A stretch of DNA of 64,000 bases from a virus. The position numbers and the translations under genes are program-made. Where the stretch lies: positions 186,001 through 250,000 of IMG/VR virus record IMGVR_UViG_3300028840_001395. One strand, 5' to 3'. This document shows, piece by piece, positions 11,553 through 25,143 of the stretch. The notes below the pieces were generated by a model. That model was not told where the DNA came from and ran no database searches. It worked only from the letters and a program-made list of their open reading frames with translations. Position 1 is the first letter of the stretch. Every line of letters starts with the position of its first letter.

Positions 11553-11588
11553 GGGGGTCTTATCTTGAGTCCCGACAGAGTAGTCTAG
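11553..11588 (+). promoter_or_regulatory. Phage-type promoter, right half of a divergent pair
   Basis: GGGGGTCTTATC, 16-nt spacer ending GACAGAG, TAGTCTAGG, then GGAG ahead of the 11608 start codon. Confidence 0.85.
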
Positions 11589-11607
11589 GTGAGGAGAGGA
11601 GCACGCG

Positions 11608-12114
11608 ATGAACACTCACGAAGCCTACGCCGAGGAAATCCGCCGAGGTGTCTGGGCCGACCCGAACCCCGACCGCTGCGGCTGCAAAGGAACCGGCCTG
11701 TGGGTGTCGGACTTCGACAGCTACCACGAGTGCCCGTTCCACGGCGACCCCGACATCCCCGACCCCGAGTGGGATGACGAGACCCACGGTCCCTGCACCT
11801 TCGACTGGGACGCCCACGAGCGCCGCATCTGCGTGGATGCCTACCGGCACTTCCGCGATCAGGCCGTCGAACTGGGCCTCTCCGCCGAGGTCTTCGAGGC
11901 CATCTGCCGCCGCGACCTGGGAGCGGGCGAGCACACCCCCCGCGAGTGGGTGAACGCCGCCAACGCCGCCGCCGAGGAGCTGGCCCACACCCTGGAGGAA
12001 GCCAACGCCCGCGCCGAGGGCTTCTCCTGCGCCCTGGAGCGCCGCCTCGAAGAGGAGTACGAGATCGAGATGCAGGAGTACGAGGAAGAAGTCCGAGCCA
12101 CGGGTATCCGATAG
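11608..12114 (+). CDS. Hypothetical acidic protein, 168 aa
   Basis: Not recognised. Cysteines in the first 40 residues (CGC, CPFHG) suggest a small metal site; the last 60 residues are Glu/Ala-rich and probably coiled coil. It ends in TAG immediately before the -35 element of the next promoter. Confidence 0.65.
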   Translation: MNTHEAYAEEIRRGVWADPNPDRCGCKGTGLWVSDFDSYHECPFHGDPDIPDPEWDDETHGPCTFDWDAHERRICVDAYRHFRDQAVELGLSAEVFEAICRRDLGAGEHTPREWVNAANAAAEELAHTLEEANARAEGFSCALERRLEEEYEIEMQEYEEEVRATGIR

Positions 12115-12148
12115 GGGGCTTACTTCCGGCCCGGTGAGAGTAGTCTGG
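12115..12148 (+). promoter_or_regulatory. Phage-type promoter (CTTACT-N16-TAGTCTGG)
   Basis: GGGGGCTTACT, spacer ending GTGAGAG, TAGTCTGG, 15 nt before the ligase start codon. It abuts the TAG stop at 12112-12114. Confidence 0.85.
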
Positions 12149-12162
12149 TCACGGAGGTTTCG

Positions 12163-13302
12163 ATGGCCAAGTCCAAGATCGAGAAGCTCGCGGCCCTGAT
12201 CGCCAAGGCCAAGGACGCGTACTACAACGGGAAACCCATCATGGGTGACCCCGAGTATGACGCGCTCGAAGACGAGCTGCGGAAGCTCGACCCGAGCAAC
12301 CCCGTCCTGGCGATGGTCGGTGCAGACCCGACCGGGAGCGGCTGGCCCAAGGTCAAGCACGAGATCCCGATGGGGTCGCTCCGCAAGGCCCAGGACTCCG
12401 ACGACATGGACAAGTGGTTCTCGACGCAGAGCGTCAACACGCCGGTCTGTGTCTCCGACAAGCTCGACGGCATCAGCATCGGCCTGCGCTACGAGAAAGG
12501 CAAGCTCGTCCAGGGCTTGACGCGGGGCGACGGCGACACGGGTGAGGACATCACCAGGAACGTCATGCTGATGCAGGGCGCGGTCAAGGTGCTCCCCAAG
12601 ACGGTCAAGGGCAAGCCCCTCCCCGACGTGGTGTACGTGCGGGGCGAGGTGGTGGTCAAGAAGTCCGACTTCGCCGCCAACTTCAAGGGCGACTCCAACC
12701 CGAGGAACACCGCGAGCGGGACGGCCAAGCGCCAGAGTGACCCGAGCAAGTGCAAGCACCTGACCATCCTCGCGTACCAGTGGCTCCCGGACGGCATGGC
12801 CCCGGAGTTCAAGTGCGACGAGTTCCACGCGCTGGTCGAGGCCGGGTTCCAAACCGCCAACTTCAAGGTCTGCAAGAACGCGGCCCAGGTACAGGCCTTC
12901 TACCAGGAGTACGTGGACAAGACCCGCGACTCCCTGGACTACCTGATCGACGGGCTCGTGGTGGACATCGATGACCGGGACGTGCGCGAGGGCAAGGGCA
13001 CCACGGACGGTCGGCCCAAGGGCGCGGTGGCCTACAAGTTCCCGCACGAGAAGAAGCCGACCACGCTCCGGAACATCCGCTGGCAGGTGGGCAACTCGGG
13101 GCGCATCACCCCGGTCGCAGAGTTCGACACCGTGAACCTGGCGGGCGCGAACGTGAGCCAGGCCAGCCTCCACACGGTCGAGCGTGTCAAGAAGTTGAAA
13201 TTGTTCAAGGGATGCCGTATCCTGGTGTCGCGGCGAAATGATGTGATTCCAATGGTGGAGGCAAACCTGGATGAAAACATCAACATCAGCGACTTCGAGT
13301 AG
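12163..13302 (+). CDS. ligA: NAD-dependent DNA ligase, N-terminal part (adenylation and OB domains), 379 aa
   Basis: The first half of a bacterial-type LigA. Domain Ia is at residues 1-60 (YYNG, EYDAL). The adenylation motif KLDG places the AMP-accepting lysine at K100, followed by TRGDGDTGED (about 120-129), the NPRNTASGT motif and a later AYKFP. An OB-fold segment with NLAGANVSQASLH ends at the ARRND-VIP-like strand. The protein stops there, where an intact LigA (about 670 aa) would continue into the zinc finger. A homing endonuclease gene follows, overlapping by 32 nt. From about 13190 codon use shifts to AT-richer codons, as if the end of this gene came with the insertion. Whether it works with the separately encoded C-terminal part is inference. 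Confidence 0.9.
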   Translation: MAKSKIEKLAALIAKAKDAYYNGKPIMGDPEYDALEDELRKLDPSNPVLAMVGADPTGSGWPKVKHEIPMGSLRKAQDSDDMDKWFSTQSVNTPVCVSDKLDGISIGLRYEKGKLVQGLTRGDGDTGEDITRNVMLMQGAVKVLPKTVKGKPLPDVVYVRGEVVVKKSDFAANFKGDSNPRNTASGTAKRQSDPSKCKHLTILAYQWLPDGMAPEFKCDEFHALVEAGFQTANFKVCKNAAQVQAFYQEYVDKTRDSLDYLIDGLVVDIDDRDVREGKGTTDGRPKGAVAYKFPHEKKPTTLRNIRWQVGNSGRITPVAEFDTVNLAGANVSQASLHTVERVKKLKLFKGCRILVSRRNDVIPMVEANLDENINISDFE

Positions 13303-14098
13303 CTATCTGGTATGCCCCGTCTGCCAGCGTAAGATGCGGTCTATCACCACACAGCACATCAAGAAGCATGGCTTTGAGGATGCGAAGTCATTCAAGAGAC
13401 ACTTCGGACTAGATTCTCTCAAGTGTGATGAGATGCGAGGACGCCAGTCCAAGTTCATGTCGTCACACAACCCCACCGCAGGGAATGGACACACCCCAAC
13501 GTCCATCAAGAAGATGAGGGAACGACGCAAGGGGAAAGGACTCGGTGTGGCCGGGAAGTACGAGAGGACTCCCGAGATACGCCTCAAGATATCGAAGGGT
13601 GTCACCCGAGCATGGGAAAAGGGGAAGAGAGGAAGAGGATGGTACGTTTACGGTCGCAAGGCTGAAAAGAAGGTATGGGTTCGGTCTTCCTGGGAAGAAC
13701 GGGTGGTGAGAGTCTTGGACTCCCATCCCTGTGTCCTTCGGTATGAGGTAGAACCCTTCCAGATTCCTTACTGGCATAACGGAAATCCGCATCGATACAC
13801 CCCTGACTTCTTGGTGATGTTGGAGGGTAACATCAAGGAACTGTGGGAGGTGAAACCACAGGAACTCCTGAATTTGCACCGTAATCCTTCCAAGATTGCT
13901 GCCTTGAATGAGTTTGCGGTAGATCACGGCATCAACACCAGGGTGGTTACTCTTGAGCACATAGAGGGGATGGAGAGACAGGTGGGAATCCAGCCGTGGA
14001 CGGGGGCTGGAGGGCCGTGGGTGAAACCGGATGACCCTGACTTCCGACCCCGAAGCCCCCGAGAACAAAAGGGCTTATCTGACGACTCAGTGGAGTAG
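13271..14098 (+). CDS. Free-standing homing endonuclease, Vsr/EDxHD-like (PD-(D/E)xK), 275 aa
   Basis: An N-terminal C2H2-like finger (CPVCQRKM ... HIKKHG) leads into a basic NUMOD-like linker and then a nuclease core: SSWEERVV near residue 145, YTPDFLV near 175 and ELWEVKP near 190. This is the layout of Vsr-like homing endonucleases such as I-Bth0305I that interrupt or sit beside phage replication genes. It lies between the two ligase parts. Its base composition is clearly lower in GC than its flanks, which marks it as an insertion. The start ATG has GGAGG upstream, and the TAG stop is part of the next promoter's -10 element. Confidence 0.85.
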   Translation: MKTSTSATSSSYLVCPVCQRKMRSITTQHIKKHGFEDAKSFKRHFGLDSLKCDEMRGRQSKFMSSHNPTAGNGHTPTSIKKMRERRKGKGLGVAGKYERTPEIRLKISKGVTRAWEKGKRGRGWYVYGRKAEKKVWVRSSWEERVVRVLDSHPCVLRYEVEPFQIPYWHNGNPHRYTPDFLVMLEGNIKELWEVKPQELLNLHRNPSKIAALNEFAVDHGINTRVVTLEHIEGMERQVGIQPWTGAGGPWVKPDDPDFRPRSPREQKGLSDDSVE

Positions 14099-14104
14099 TC
14101 TAGG
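14071..14104 (+). promoter_or_regulatory. Phage-type promoter for the C-terminal ligase part
   Basis: GGGCTTATC, 16-nt spacer, TAGTCTAGG. It overlaps the end of the homing endonuclease gene (stop TAG at 14096-14098 is the start of TAGTCT) and gives the second ligase part its own transcription start. Confidence 0.85.
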
Positions 14105-14118
14105 TGAAGGAGAAGATG

Positions 14119-14946
14119 ATGACCGTGTCAGCAGCGAGAGAGTATTTTGAAGCACCGACCCTCTGCCCCTCCTGCGGGGGCCAGCTCAAGCGGGACGGCG
14201 AGTACCTCATCTGCCCGAACACCGATGGCTGCGAGGCCCAGGCGACCGGCGCTATCAAGCGCTGGTGCAAGAAGATCGACGTGAAGCACGTCGGGGAGAG
14301 CCTCATCGTGGTGCTGGTCGAGGAGGGGCTGGTCAAGGACATCGCAGACCTGTACACGCTCGACCCCGCCGAGGTCGAGAACCTGACGATGGGCGACCGC
14401 CGGGTGGGCGGTACGGGTCGCAAGGCCGTGACCAACCTGCGGAACAAGATGGCCCTCCCGCTGCACGTCTTCGTCGGGAGTCTCGGCATCCCGCTCATCG
14501 GGCGCAGCATGGCCAAGACCATCGTGGACGGCGGTTTCGACAGCCTCTCGAAGATGCTCAAGGCCAAGATCTCCGAGGTCGCCGCCATCCCCGGCGTCGG
14601 CCAGAGCAAGGCCGACAGCTTCGTCAAGGGCTTCACCGCCAAGGCCGGGCTGGTCGCCAAGCTCATCTCGGTCGGCATCGTGGTGCAGAGCGCCACCGGG
14701 CCGCTCAAGGGCAAGGTCTTTTGCCTCACGGGCTTCCGCGACAGCGACCTGACCGAGGCCATCGAGCGGGCGGGTGGCACGGTCAAGTCCAGCGTGAGCA
14801 AGAAGCTGACGCACCTGGTGCTCAAGGATCCGTCCTCGACTTCGGGCAAGGCGAAGAAGGCCCGCGACTACAACAAGCAGGGCGTGGCCGACATCGAACT
14901 GATAGACCCGGACGAGGCGTGGGATCTCGCGGGAGGTCGTCCGTGA
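14119..14946 (+). CDS. ligA: NAD-dependent DNA ligase, C-terminal part (Zn finger, HhH, BRCT), 275 aa
   Basis: It begins where a normal LigA would reach the zinc finger: CPSC at about residue 16 and CPNTDGC about 15 residues later. Helix-hairpin-helix repeats fill about 45-190, and a BRCT domain starting GKVFCLTGF runs to the end. There is no adenylation domain, so alone it can only bind DNA. Start chosen at ATG 14119, 6 nt after AAGGAG; an ATG one codon earlier is possible. Together with 12163-13302 it would rebuild a nearly complete ligase with little sequence lost at the junction. Confidence 0.9.
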   Translation: MTVSAAREYFEAPTLCPSCGGQLKRDGEYLICPNTDGCEAQATGAIKRWCKKIDVKHVGESLIVVLVEEGLVKDIADLYTLDPAEVENLTMGDRRVGGTGRKAVTNLRNKMALPLHVFVGSLGIPLIGRSMAKTIVDGGFDSLSKMLKAKISEVAAIPGVGQSKADSFVKGFTAKAGLVAKLISVGIVVQSATGPLKGKVFCLTGFRDSDLTEAIERAGGTVKSSVSKKLTHLVLKDPSSTSGKAKKARDYNKQGVADIELIDPDEAWDLAGGRP

Positions 14947-16759: not shown

Positions 16760-16794
16760 GGGGCTTATTTCTCCCCGCGACAGAGTAGTCTAGG
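16760..16794 (+). promoter_or_regulatory. Phage-type promoter for the WGR-PARP gene
   Basis: GGGGGCTTATT, 16-nt spacer ending GACAGAG, TAGTCTAGG, an essentially consensus copy 19 nt upstream of the PARP start. Confidence 0.88.
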
Positions 16795-16812
16795 GGAAGG
16801 GAGAACAGGACG

Positions 16813-18489
16813 ATGGCAGAGAAGCTCAAGAGACGCGAGTTCCCGTCCGGCTACAACCCGGACGACTTCGAGTACAAGGGTCGCCCGGCCAACGACCAGG
16901 GCGACTTCGGCGGCGACGTGGGCATCGCGGACATGGCCTGCGTCGATCAGTTCGGAGAGAAGAACGCCAGCAAGTTCTACCACGGCGGCGTCGTCCAGGC
17001 GAACGACGGCACCTGGTTCCTCTACACGGAGTGGGGCCGCTGCAAGCCCGGCAACTCCTGGTCGGGTTCGTCCTGGACGGGCAACGCCCAGGACTTCCAG
17101 TTCGTCCGCTGCGGCTCCGAGGATGAGACCCGCGCCGAGTTCGCCAAGAAGATGGCGAGCAAGAACACCAAGCGCCTGACGCAGATCGACGTGGGCGGCA
17201 AGAAGGTGTGGGCGGGCAAGAAGGGCAAGGACGGCTACATCGTCCAGCAGCTTGCCACCCGCGAGAAGGGCCTCCCCGACGCCCTCCGCATCAAGGACAA
17301 CTCGGGCGTCGGCTCCGCCGCCAACGGTGGCAACGGCAAGACGGCGAAGCCGAAGGCCAAGGGCAAGAAGGCCAAGGCCGCGAAGCCGACCCGCAAGTTC
17401 GACCAGCAGGTCGTGTCCCTCGCTTCGTCGCTGGTCGGCGGCACGCAGACCTACACCCGGTCGCTCTCGGCGGCGTCCGGCGTCACGCCGACGATGAACG
17501 CCATCGAGGAGGTCAGGAACGACCTGATCCCCGCCGCGATGGAGCGCATCAAGACGGTCGGTGACGACGTGAGCGCCCAGGTGCGGGACAACAAGCTCGT
17601 CGCCATCTCCAAGATGGTCGCCGCGATGGTTCCGCGCCCCATCCCGCGCAAGGGCCAGAGCGAGGAGGACGCGATCCTCTCCGGCGGCAACATCCTGGTC
17701 TTGCAGCAGGACTTGGACGCCTTCGAGGCCGCGCTCCTGAACGAGGACTTCGAGCAGGAGGCCCCCGACACCACGGTCAACCCGGACACGCTGCTCAACG
17801 CCCGGCTGTCCTACCTCGACCCCAAGGGTGACGGCAAGTGGGTCGCCCAGGCCTTCGCCAAGATGACCGCCAACCGGCACGGCTACATCCGGGGCCGGAT
17901 GAACGTGCGGCACATCTTCGCCGTCGAGCGCCCCGACCGCGACGCCCGGTTCATGAAGTGCGTCAAGCAGATCGCGGCCAAGCGCAAGGGCCGGTTCAGC
18001 CTGACGGCGAACCTCCAGCCCCGCTCGCGGAACGACCTGAACGGCATCGGGGACGACTATGGCCTGGCGAACGTGGTGCTGGCCATCCACGGCACCCGGC
18101 CCGTCAACATCGCCCCCATCATGGGGACGAACTTCCGACTGCCGCGCAGTCTGCCCGGCGCGCAGATCACCGGGGCCAACTTCGGTCACGGGGTGTACTT
18201 CGCCACGGACTGGAAGAAGTCCTACGGCTACACGGGGCGCGGGTACTGGGGGCACTCGGGCGGCGACATCCGCAACCGAGGGTGCTTCATGTTCCTCTGC
18301 GACATGGCGATGGGCGACCCCTACCGCGCCCCCTCGACCGGCTCATGGAGCCAGCCCCCGCAGGGCAAGGACTCCGTGTTCGGCGTCGGCGGCGACCGAG
18401 GCCACCGGCTGGAGAACGACGAACACGTCATCTTCAACCCGGACTACCAGCGCATCCGCTACCTGGTCGAGTTCGACTGGCTGACCTAG
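16813..18489 (+). CDS. WGR-domain poly(ADP-ribose) polymerase-like protein, 558 aa
   Basis: Transfers ADP-ribose from NAD+ to an acceptor if active. Residues about 50-160 form a WGR domain (W74-G75-R76), the nucleic-acid-binding and allosteric domain of DNA-dependent PARPs. A Lys/Ala-rich linker (about 175-195) and a helical region (195-350) follow. The C-terminal catalytic domain has the full H-Y-E triad: H426 in HGTR, Y462 in GHGVYFATD and E537 in NDEHVIF. An intact triad is typical of polymer-forming PARPs. There are no zinc fingers, as in bacterial PARPs and PARP2/3. It sits between the split ligase and small genes, under its own strong promoter. Target and role in infection are unknown. 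Confidence 0.9.
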   Translation: MAEKLKRREFPSGYNPDDFEYKGRPANDQGDFGGDVGIADMACVDQFGEKNASKFYHGGVVQANDGTWFLYTEWGRCKPGNSWSGSSWTGNAQDFQFVRCGSEDETRAEFAKKMASKNTKRLTQIDVGGKKVWAGKKGKDGYIVQQLATREKGLPDALRIKDNSGVGSAANGGNGKTAKPKAKGKKAKAAKPTRKFDQQVVSLASSLVGGTQTYTRSLSAASGVTPTMNAIEEVRNDLIPAAMERIKTVGDDVSAQVRDNKLVAISKMVAAMVPRPIPRKGQSEEDAILSGGNILVLQQDLDAFEAALLNEDFEQEAPDTTVNPDTLLNARLSYLDPKGDGKWVAQAFAKMTANRHGYIRGRMNVRHIFAVERPDRDARFMKCVKQIAAKRKGRFSLTANLQPRSRNDLNGIGDDYGLANVVLAIHGTRPVNIAPIMGTNFRLPRSLPGAQITGANFGHGVYFATDWKKSYGYTGRGYWGHSGGDIRNRGCFMFLCDMAMGDPYRAPSTGSWSQPPQGKDSVFGVGGDRGHRLENDEHVIFNPDYQRIRYLVEFDWLT

Positions 18490-20259: not shown

Positions 20260-21039
20260 ATGAAGATCGAAGACCCCCGCAACGCCCAGGCCATCGCCCA
20301 GTCCCCCGACTGGCGCACCGCCGTCACCGACCTGCTGACCCTGTGGGCCAACGAGAACCGGCCCTTCTCTTCGGGCGAGGTCGCCTCCGCCCTGCGGACG
20401 CACCGGCCCGACCTGCGGTTCAGCGTCCTGTCGGTGGGCGAGCACCTCCGCGACATGTTCTACTCGCAGACGATGCCGCCCTACGCCGGGGGCCAGCCGT
20501 TCCAGGTGCCCCGGCTCACCGAGGGCCTGTACCCGACCCGCACGACCGCCGGAACCGAGGTGTTCGTCTACGCCCCGCAGCCCGACGAGGGCGACTCGCA
20601 CGACTTCGAGGTCTACATCCCCGAGCCGGGCGAGACCATCGCGGACGCCCCGGCCCAGGCCATCCCGCAGACGCAGCAGGCGCAGCAGACCGGCGGGCCG
20701 ACCCCCGTGACCATCTTCGGGGCCAAGGTCGCCAACGCGGACATCAAGGCCAAGGTCCACGACGACAAGCGCCTCTGCGTCCCGCGCTCCGCCTTCGAGC
20801 TGTCCGTCCACCTGGGGGCGCAGCCCATGCGGGGCGGCGAGCCCGTGTACGTCACGATGGAGCCGGACAAGGTGACCGTCAGCCTGTCCGACCCCGGCAA
20901 CGGGGCCAAGCCCTACGACCTGTCGCAGACCAGGGGGCGCGTGCTGTTCCCCTCCCCCGACCCGGCCAAGCCCTTCTCGCCGGGCGCGGTGTTCCAGGTC
21001 AAGGTCGAGAAGGGCGTCCTGACCATCGACCTGCCCTAG
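20260..21039 (+). CDS. Hypothetical protein, 259 aa
   Basis: Not recognised. The N-terminal 80 residues look like a helical (possibly winged-helix) domain, a Gln/Ala/Pro linker sits at about 125-145, and the C-terminal half is beta-rich. Probably two domains. Very high GC at third codon positions, typical of the core phage genes here. Confidence 0.65.
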   Translation: MKIEDPRNAQAIAQSPDWRTAVTDLLTLWANENRPFSSGEVASALRTHRPDLRFSVLSVGEHLRDMFYSQTMPPYAGGQPFQVPRLTEGLYPTRTTAGTEVFVYAPQPDEGDSHDFEVYIPEPGETIADAPAQAIPQTQQAQQTGGPTPVTIFGAKVANADIKAKVHDDKRLCVPRSAFELSVHLGAQPMRGGEPVYVTMEPDKVTVSLSDPGNGAKPYDLSQTRGRVLFPSPDPAKPFSPGAVFQVKVEKGVLTIDLP

Positions 21040-23724: not shown

Positions 23725-24221
23725 GCAGCGACGCCTACAACAAGTACCTCCAACTGGAAGCCAAGCGGCACGTCATCCTCAAGACCCACAAGGGCACCCA
23801 GGACGAACTCGACGCCCTCGAAGACCCCATCCTCGAAGCAATGGACCCGCTCTGGTGGGAGATGACCGAGGAGGAACGGGCCAGCATCAACGAGGCCACG
23901 AGGAAACGAGCCACCACCCCTCGCACGGATGTCCCGAAGAAGTACACCTGTGCCTGGTGCCGGAAGAAGTTCGTCTCCGAGATCCGACCCCCTCTCCGAC
24001 TCCCGGATGGGGCCAAGCATGGTCGGGTGGGGGTGTCCAACAAGGTCGAGAAGCTGGGCGAGCCCATTGTCATCCAAGGCCATGCCGTGAGCCCCCCTGG
24101 AGGCGCTCTGTTCGAGGGTTCCGAGTTCGCCTGCTCGGTAGAGTGCTACGAGAACCTGACGGGCCAGGAGCCACCGGATGGCGCGACCCATAGCCAAGGT
24201 GCAAGTTCAGACCAGTCTTGA
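23721..24221 (+). CDS. Hypothetical zinc-binding protein, 166 aa
   Basis: Helical N-terminal half; CAWC at about residue 78 and a distant CSVEC form a plausible zinc site. The last 44 nt overlap the pyrF-like gene in another frame. GTG start. Confidence 0.6.
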   Translation: MSSDAYNKYLQLEAKRHVILKTHKGTQDELDALEDPILEAMDPLWWEMTEEERASINEATRKRATTPRTDVPKKYTCAWCRKKFVSEIRPPLRLPDGAKHGRVGVSNKVEKLGEPIVIQGHAVSPPGGALFEGSEFACSVECYENLTGQEPPDGATHSQGASSDQS

Positions 24222-25143
24222 CCGCTGGGCCTGGAAACGCCTTCAACGCATCCTGAAACACCGCGAGACCACGAAGAGATACGGCGAGGAATGGCCCAAT
24301 CAATCACTGATTCTGCGCGAGATCGTGCAGGCTTACATGGAGGAACACCCCGAAATGGATCCACACAGCGAAGCCCGGAGTCGTCTGATCGTCGCCCTCG
24401 ACATGCCCCACCGGGACGCCCTGGAGGCTGCCCGGAGGCTCAAAGGTCGTGTCGGAGCCTTCAAGCTCAACTCCGCCTTCGTGGGTGGCGGACCGGAGAT
24501 CCTCGCGGATTTCTTCCAAAACGCCGGACCAGTGTTTCTGGACATGAAGTTCCACGACATCCCCAACACCGTGGCCAACCACGTCACGGCGGTCACGGAG
24601 ATGGGCAGGCACTACCTGGCCGGAAAGCCTGGAGACCCCTATGTCTCGATGATGACCATCCACACGGCGGCAGGCGAAGCGGCGATGAAGGCGGCAATGG
24701 AAGCTGCCCGGAAGGCCGCGACTCACGCGAACCGCCCCCGGCCCAAGATTCTGGGTATCACCGTCCTGACCTCGCTCTCCGCCGAGGACTGCGAGGCGGT
24801 CGGGATGTCCGTCCACGGTGAGACTGATGCCGCTGCCGTCACCGATGTCGTCCTGAAGCGAGCCAAGCTGGCCCGTGACTGTGGCCTGGACGGACTGGTC
24901 TGCTCCGGCAAGGAGGTCGAGGCCGTCCGCGAGGTGGTCGGGGAAGAGATGAAGCTCGTGGTGCCGGGTATCCGTCCGGCTGGGGGGTCGGAAGATGACC
25001 AGGCGAGGGTAGTAACCCCTGAGAAGGCCATCAAGGCCGGGGCAGACTACCTCGTCGTGGGGCGCTCCATCTACGGGGCCAATGACCCCGGCCAAGCCGC
25101 CGATGAGATCGTGGCCCAGATCGCGGAGGCTCTGACCGGATGA
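24178..25143 (+). CDS. pyrF: Orotidine 5'-phosphate decarboxylase with RHH-like N-terminal extension, 321 aa
   Basis: Converts OMP to UMP, the last step of de novo UMP synthesis. From about residue 65 the protein is a PyrF TIM barrel: IVALD at the first strand, the catalytic DMKFHDIPNTV (D-x-K-x-x-D) and the C-terminal phosphate-binding RPAGG ... VVGRSIYGA. Residues 1-59 (VQVQTSLDRWAWKRLQRI ... SLILREIVQAYM) look like a ribbon-helix-helix DNA-binding unit, not part of PyrF. An internal ATG at 24355 (codon 60) has GGAGGA 10 nt upstream, so both a fusion and a plain PyrF could be made. The next gene, a nucleotidase, overlaps by 4 nt. Confidence 0.88.
   Translation: MARPIAKVQVQTSLDRWAWKRLQRILKHRETTKRYGEEWPNQSLILREIVQAYMEEHPEMDPHSEARSRLIVALDMPHRDALEAARRLKGRVGAFKLNSAFVGGGPEILADFFQNAGPVFLDMKFHDIPNTVANHVTAVTEMGRHYLAGKPGDPYVSMMTIHTAAGEAAMKAAMEAARKAATHANRPRPKILGITVLTSLSAEDCEAVGMSVHGETDAAAVTDVVLKRAKLARDCGLDGLVCSGKEVEAVREVVGEEMKLVVPGIRPAGGSEDDQARVVTPEKAIKAGADYLVVGRSIYGANDPGQAADEIVAQIAEALTG

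Follow-up and report, generated by a model that had tools for sequence, protein, structure and literature searches.

A divergent phage-encoded WGR-PARP and its linkage to DNA ligase genes

Here we describe a PARP encoded by a phage genome of 435,804 bp, within a window of 64,000 nucleotides that comprises bases 186001-250000 of that genome. The protein is a new, divergent member of the already-known phage PARPs, and the linkage of phage PARPs to DNA ligase genes suggests a role at DNA breaks. The best explanation, which we regard as about evenly balanced, is that it serves as a DNA-break-activated, reversible ADP-ribosyltransferase in phage nick or break processing; from the data below we infer its activity, DNA dependence, targets, role in repair and working as one system with other phage genes. 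The source virus is most likely a tailed jumbo phage, judging by the homologues of RIIA/RIIB, UvsX, a Dda-like helicase, clamp loader, GroEL, RtcB and ribonucleotide reductase in the record.

Results

The protein has the architecture of DNA-dependent PARPs

An earlier note on this DNA had proposed a phage WGR-PARP with an intact H-Y-E triad, and the reading frame agrees exactly with that proposal: an ORF of 558 codons with an ATG start and a purine-rich ribosome-binding site upstream, carrying all three triad residues (Table 1). The Pfam PARP family PF00644 matched the protein at 59.1 bits, above the curated cut-off of 26.7, and this was the single PF00644 match in the whole genome. By sequence, the protein is assigned to the PARP/ARTD catalytic family (H-Y-E clade). 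The triad glutamate would allow polymer synthesis, of which it is no proof. The statement that T4 Alt and ModA belong to other ART families also held. The ART domain of the window protein matched PARP families only; T4 Alt, ModA and ModB are of the R-S-E type, in contrast to the H-Y-E window PARP.

The domain order of WGR, helical region and PARP catalytic domain, and with it the claimed likeness to DNA-dependent PARPs, is backed by profiles, structure and conservation. The Pfam WGR profile scored 13.6 bits in the window protein itself, under its cut-off, and matched the full-length orthologue of the megaphage LR756511.1 at 4.5e-9 and, marginally, the relative L039 at 1.9e-4. The PARP_reg profile had no sequence match in the window protein and was matched in the PARP of Klebsiella phage FBKp34. 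An AlphaFold2 (AF2) model, for which 33 phage PARPs served as input, reached a pLDDT of 76.5 and a pTM of 0.72, with helices at residues 198-222, 228-249, 253-257, 260-272, 284-287 and 291-310 of the helical domain. The top Foldseek match in the PDB was 7s6h, PARP1 on a double-strand break (E 2.1e-19, 570 columns), and the PARP2 structure 6x0l also matched (4.4e-18), both over the whole WGR-HD-ART. The orthologue profile, the conserved N51, K54, G75, R76 and Y142 and the fold match together indicate that the WGR domain of a DNA-dependent PARP (PARP1/2/3 core) is present. A predicted helical domain is present between WGR and ART, and its autoinhibitory role is putative.

Table 1. Features of the PARP gene, its neighbourhood and related genes (positions are those of the window unless marked as genome)
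Feature	Position	Strand	Evidence and remarks
Promoter-like motif, further example	11556-11592		
Motif before LigA N-terminal part	12116..12152	+	Score 22.1
NAD+-dependent DNA ligase, N-terminal part (Ia, adenylation, OB)	12163..13302	+	Pfam; phmmer 9.8e-110 to intact L039 LigA
TnsA-like endonuclease ORF between ligase halves	13271..14098	+	PF08722 8.1e-13
Motif before LigA C-terminal part	14071..14107	+	Score 31.8
NAD+-dependent DNA ligase, C-terminal part (Zn, HhH, BRCT)	14104..14946	+	Pfam; phmmer 1.5e-96 to L039 LigA
Motif before PARP, GGGCTTATTTCT...CAGAGTAGTCTAGGGG	16761..16797	+	Score 53.4; CTTATT 16764-16769, 16-nt spacer, TAGTCT 16786-16791; then purine-rich ribosome-binding site, ATG at 16813
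WGR-HD-ART PARP gene	16813..18489	+	ORF, Pfam, AF2, Foldseek; 558 aa
WGR domain	16918..17247	+	Residues ~36-145; W74-G75-R76 motif; N51, K54, Y142; AF2 strands/helix, orthologue Pfam WGR, conservation
Lys/Ala-rich linker, low confidence	17260..17403	+	Residues ~150-197; pLDDT < 50 at 151-155 and 167-189
Helical (regulatory-like) domain, predicted	17404..17742	+	Residues ~198-310; AF2 helices, Foldseek match to PARP1/2
ART catalytic domain	17803..18474	+	Residues ~331-554; Pfam PF00644 5.3e-16, AF2, Foldseek
Triad H426	18088..18090	+	Invariant 33/33
Triad Y462	18196..18198	+	Invariant 33/33
Triad E537	18421..18423	+	Invariant 33/33
Gene syntenic with PARP in L002, L039, L041; function not assigned	20260..21039	+	phmmer
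NAPRT-like gene, then NAD synthase (NadE)	~132.9-135.5 kb of genome		Common promoter motif upstream
MacroD-type macrodomain gene, one in genome	138197-138757 of genome	-	Nearest MACROD2, 5.5e-29
ADP-ribosylhydrolase (ARH) gene, one in genome	269585-270790 of genome	-	Nearest solved relative ARH3, 3.8e-9

Conservation, selection and relationship to known PARPs

In the alignment of 33 phage PARPs, K54, G75, R76, Y142, H426, Y462, K469, Y473, N535 and E537 are invariant, and N51, L301 and D302 are nearly so. Coevolving WGR zones have been described in the C. difficile PARP at N34-Y39, Y57-G61 and K88-Y93 (PMC5966428); their apparent counterparts in the window protein are N51-Y56, W74-R76 and a stretch that ends at Y142, as matched by motif and not by direct alignment. 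Against close relatives the window PARP has a dN/dS of ~0.31-0.38, by a simple counting method in a GC-rich genome, which points to purifying selection. Decay to a pseudogene was ruled out by the dN/dS and the invariant residues.

In a phylogeny built from 36 phage and 18 bacterial sequences, the window PARP falls on a long branch, in a clade with 100/100 support that consists solely of five phage proteins (window, L002, L041, L039 and LR756511). Elsewhere phage and bacterial PARPs interleave, with at least 5 forced label changes, and the tree shows several phage-bacteria exchanges. The closest bacterial group to the window clade, Chloroflexota, is very distant (path 3.7). The exchanges and the existence of bacterial relatives are what one would expect if the gene were an inactive or idle passenger of bacterial origin. 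We consider this very unlikely, as the catalytic residues are invariant, dN/dS is ~0.34, the gene has its own promoter motif and ribosome-binding site, and the clade is restricted to phages.

The window PARP shares with the WGR-CAT core of human PARP1, PARP2 and PARP3 the order WGR-helical-ART, the H-Y-E triad, the WGR motif and a fold match over the full core. It differs in that the structural matches have ~16-18% identity, zinc fingers and BRCT are lacking, and the window clade has an N-terminal extension (~35 aa) and a ~30-aa insert before the HGT motif, both of which are also absent from other phage PARPs. Bacterial WGR-PARPs of the Herpetosiphon and C. difficile CD160 type are likewise compact WGR-helical-ART proteins, many of them also without a detectable PARP_reg (PMC5966428), whereas the window clade stands alone on its long branch.

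The implied rarity of phage PARPs was not borne out. PART/PARP ranks with the commonest ART families of viruses (PMC9503650), phage PARPs are documented, with BBA65562.1 of Xanthomonas phage XacN1 cited as a case (PMC7824862), and a single scan found PARPs on 33 viral contigs. The FBKp34 record is already annotated with all three domains, WGR, PARP_reg and PARP, and Pfam agrees. The PARPs of FBKp34, XacN1 and Cellulophaga phage phi17:2 have the same architecture and invariant residues as the window protein but are only 23-24% identical to it. The uncultured megaphage LR756511.1 encodes the full-length orthologue, at 40% identity.

Phage PARP genes lie close to DNA ligase genes

The PARP had been said to sit beside ligase genes. 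A ligase is indeed close, but it is an NAD+-dependent ligase gene (LigA), split in two, that lies upstream of the PARP with 1.87 kb and several small ORFs in between. The break falls between the OB and zinc-finger domains and each half has its own promoter motif, whereas LigA is intact in the relative L039 (417-2369, minus strand). Rfam gave no match between positions 12000 and 20000 of the window, and thus a recognised intron does not account for the split. The split resembles that in phage Aeh1, where ribonucleotide reductase is reportedly encoded by 'genes-in-pieces'. Elsewhere in the window, an orotidine 5'-phosphate decarboxylase gene is found at 24178-25143 (PF00215, 4.1e-48).

The linkage recurs in other phages. 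In LR756511 the PARP is followed, 0.4 kb downstream, by the start of an ATP-dependent ligase, as opposed to the NAD+-dependent ligase of the window, and at ~4 kb by an ADP-ribosylglycohydrolase (ARH) gene. In Cellulophaga phi17:2, and likewise in the closely related phi4:1, an ATP-dependent ligase lies ~0.45 kb from the PARP. The gap is at most 4 kb, a cut-off picked after the distances were seen, in 8 of the 18 phages with both genes (random placing, 1.4; P ~2.5e-6); in the other ten the two genes lie farther apart. When each lineage is represented by a single phage, the count is 5 of 10 against 0.38 expected (P ~1e-5). The excess persists at cut-offs from 1 to 32 kb and is weakest at 32 kb (one per lineage, P 0.008). 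The adjacent ligases vary in type, with NAD+-dependent LigA in the window clade and ATP-dependent ligases in LR756511, Cellulophaga and other phages, and this difference argues against simple inheritance of one PARP-ligase block. LigA is also found within 5 kb of two bacterial PARPs, adjoining in Gemmobacter caeni (L074:4092-8010) and near in Hyella patelloides (L086:4120-8400); the Hyella PARP ORF is broken in two.

Since RecA and DnaB are not close to the PARP (0 of 14 and 1 of 17 within 4 kb, together 1 of 31; Fisher test against ligase proximity, 7e-4), the ligase linkage does not merely reflect a replication module. This bears on a different account, in which the enzyme would be a host-directed effector like T4 Alt/Mod that ADP-ribosylates host RNA polymerase, translation or nucleoid proteins; breaks from degradation of the host genome would be only the trigger and the ligase incidental. 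Other phage ARTs are known to act in this way, and reviews expect it of jumbo-phage ARTs (PMC7824862, PMC9503650). We consider it rather unlikely for the window PARP, given ligase linkage without RecA or DnaB linkage, the retention of the WGR and helical domains throughout the 33 aligned phage PARPs, and the fact that it is not fused to a head or MuF protein, as injected ARTs usually are.

Erasers and NAD+ genes in the same genome

The ARH, macrodomain and NAD+ genes (Table 1) lie 64-70 kb from the PARP. ARH is present in 5/5 phages of the window clade versus 2/22 other PARP phages (Fisher 2.6e-4), absence from short contigs being weak evidence; among contigs over 100 kb only, it is present in 2/12 of the others (3.4e-3). 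It was not found in FBKp34, XacN1 or Cellulophaga phi4:1, which is near-identical to phi17:2. The macrodomain is present in 4/5 window-clade phages versus 5/22 others. ARH domains occur in ~5% of jumbo phages according to a survey (PMC9503650).

Matches to ARPP-1 and to the family Volactin were also seen among 72 large ORFs of the genome. ARPP-1 is a domain tied to ARG systems of hosts, which are proposed to act against viral ADP-ribosylation. In L002, the closest relative, a PRPP synthetase gene lies directly downstream of the PARP (L002:4646-5593). It has no match in the window phage's genome, and a PRPP/NARP1-type link as a clade-wide feature was dropped for that reason.

The erasers also bear on a proposal of DNA-end capping or counter-defence. 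Here mono-ADP-ribosylation of terminal phosphates of the phage DNA, or of nucleases acting there, would block host exonucleases or defence nucleases, and ARH and the macrodomain would uncap the ends before ligation or packaging. Terminal phosphates are substrates of PARP3 and of plant PARPs, and human ARH3 and MACROD2 strip PARP3-made ADP-ribose from DNA ends (PMC5725667, PMC7726343); the phage has both eraser types and a ligase adjoining the PARP. DNA modification by the window enzyme is putative, however, and the intact H-Y-E triad equally allows polymer on protein. We judge this proposal unlikely, but it is, like the host-directed account, a serious competitor of the break-processing reading.

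A promoter-like motif shared by the PARP, ligase, eraser and NAD+ units

The genome contains a bipartite promoter-like motif, GGKCTTAYTT followed after ~10 nt by CAGAGTAGTCTAGGTG, whose core consists of CTTAYTT, a 16-nt spacer and TAGTCT within GAGTAGTCTAGG; it is unlike sigma-70. There are 61 sites that score above 10, against 0 in the reversed control. Most of the copies shown immediately precede a ribosome-binding site and the start codon, which is often no more than a few tens of nt away. The PARP had been credited with its own near-consensus promoter. The gene does have a strong copy of this 61-site motif, but its likeness to sigma-70 is slight: CTTATT agrees with TTGACA at 2/6 positions and TAGTCT with TATAAT at 3/6, a near-sigma-70 promoter was rejected, and a sigma-70 promoter scan of the plus strand at the PARP found none.

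Further copies precede the macrodomain gene (score 45.2), the NAPRT-NadE unit (45.0) and the transcription unit of which ARH appears to be the second gene (38.9). Given 61 sites among roughly 450-600 genes, the sharing of the motif by the PARP, ligase, eraser and NAD+ units looks like more than chance in a post hoc test. It is also possible that the motif simply marks early or middle genes as a broad class.

Discussion

Handling of nicks or breaks in the phage genome is the best reading of our results, given the linkage to ligase and the finding of precisely the ARH and MacroD types of eraser. The earlier suggestion of DNA-end-dependent modification fits the architecture of the protein and is strengthened by the ligase linkage and the erasers. 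In the mechanism that we propose, for an enzyme of the WGR-HD-ART (PARP2/3-like) type, the WGR domain would bind a nick or break, upon which the helical domain would relax and the ART domain would spend NAD+ to ADP-ribosylate the PARP itself, nearby phage or host proteins of DNA metabolism, or DNA ends. PARP2 and PARP3 are described as responding selectively to 5'-phosphorylated breaks (PMC4081085). The site of action would be the phage's own large replicating genome, where breaks would be marked or protected, or factors recruited, before the phage ligase seals them. ARH and the MacroD-type hydrolase would then remove the marks, and the NAPRT-NadE enzymes would partly restore NAD+.

A further proposal, possible although we hold it tentatively, is that some jumbo phages encode a complete reversible cycle of break-triggered ADP-ribosylation, made up of a WGR-PARP, ARH and MacroD-type erasers and NAD+ resynthesis, that is coupled to a ligase. 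The erasers and NAD+ genes could instead serve other ends, such as countering host NAD-based defence. In the open-access journal papers searched, we found no description of the PARP-ligase link, of the co-occurrence of ARH in the clade or of the shared promoter motif.

The repeated occurrence of phage PARPs beside ligases of varied types points to a specific and testable function for them in the processing of nicks or breaks. A self-contained phage ADP-ribose cycle is suggested by the hydrolases and NAD+ genes that occur with the PARP. If true, the jumbo-phage cycle would be a viral counterpart of the eukaryotic PARP-ligase response to single-strand breaks, and the simple phage enzymes are possible minimal models of DNA-dependent PARP activation.
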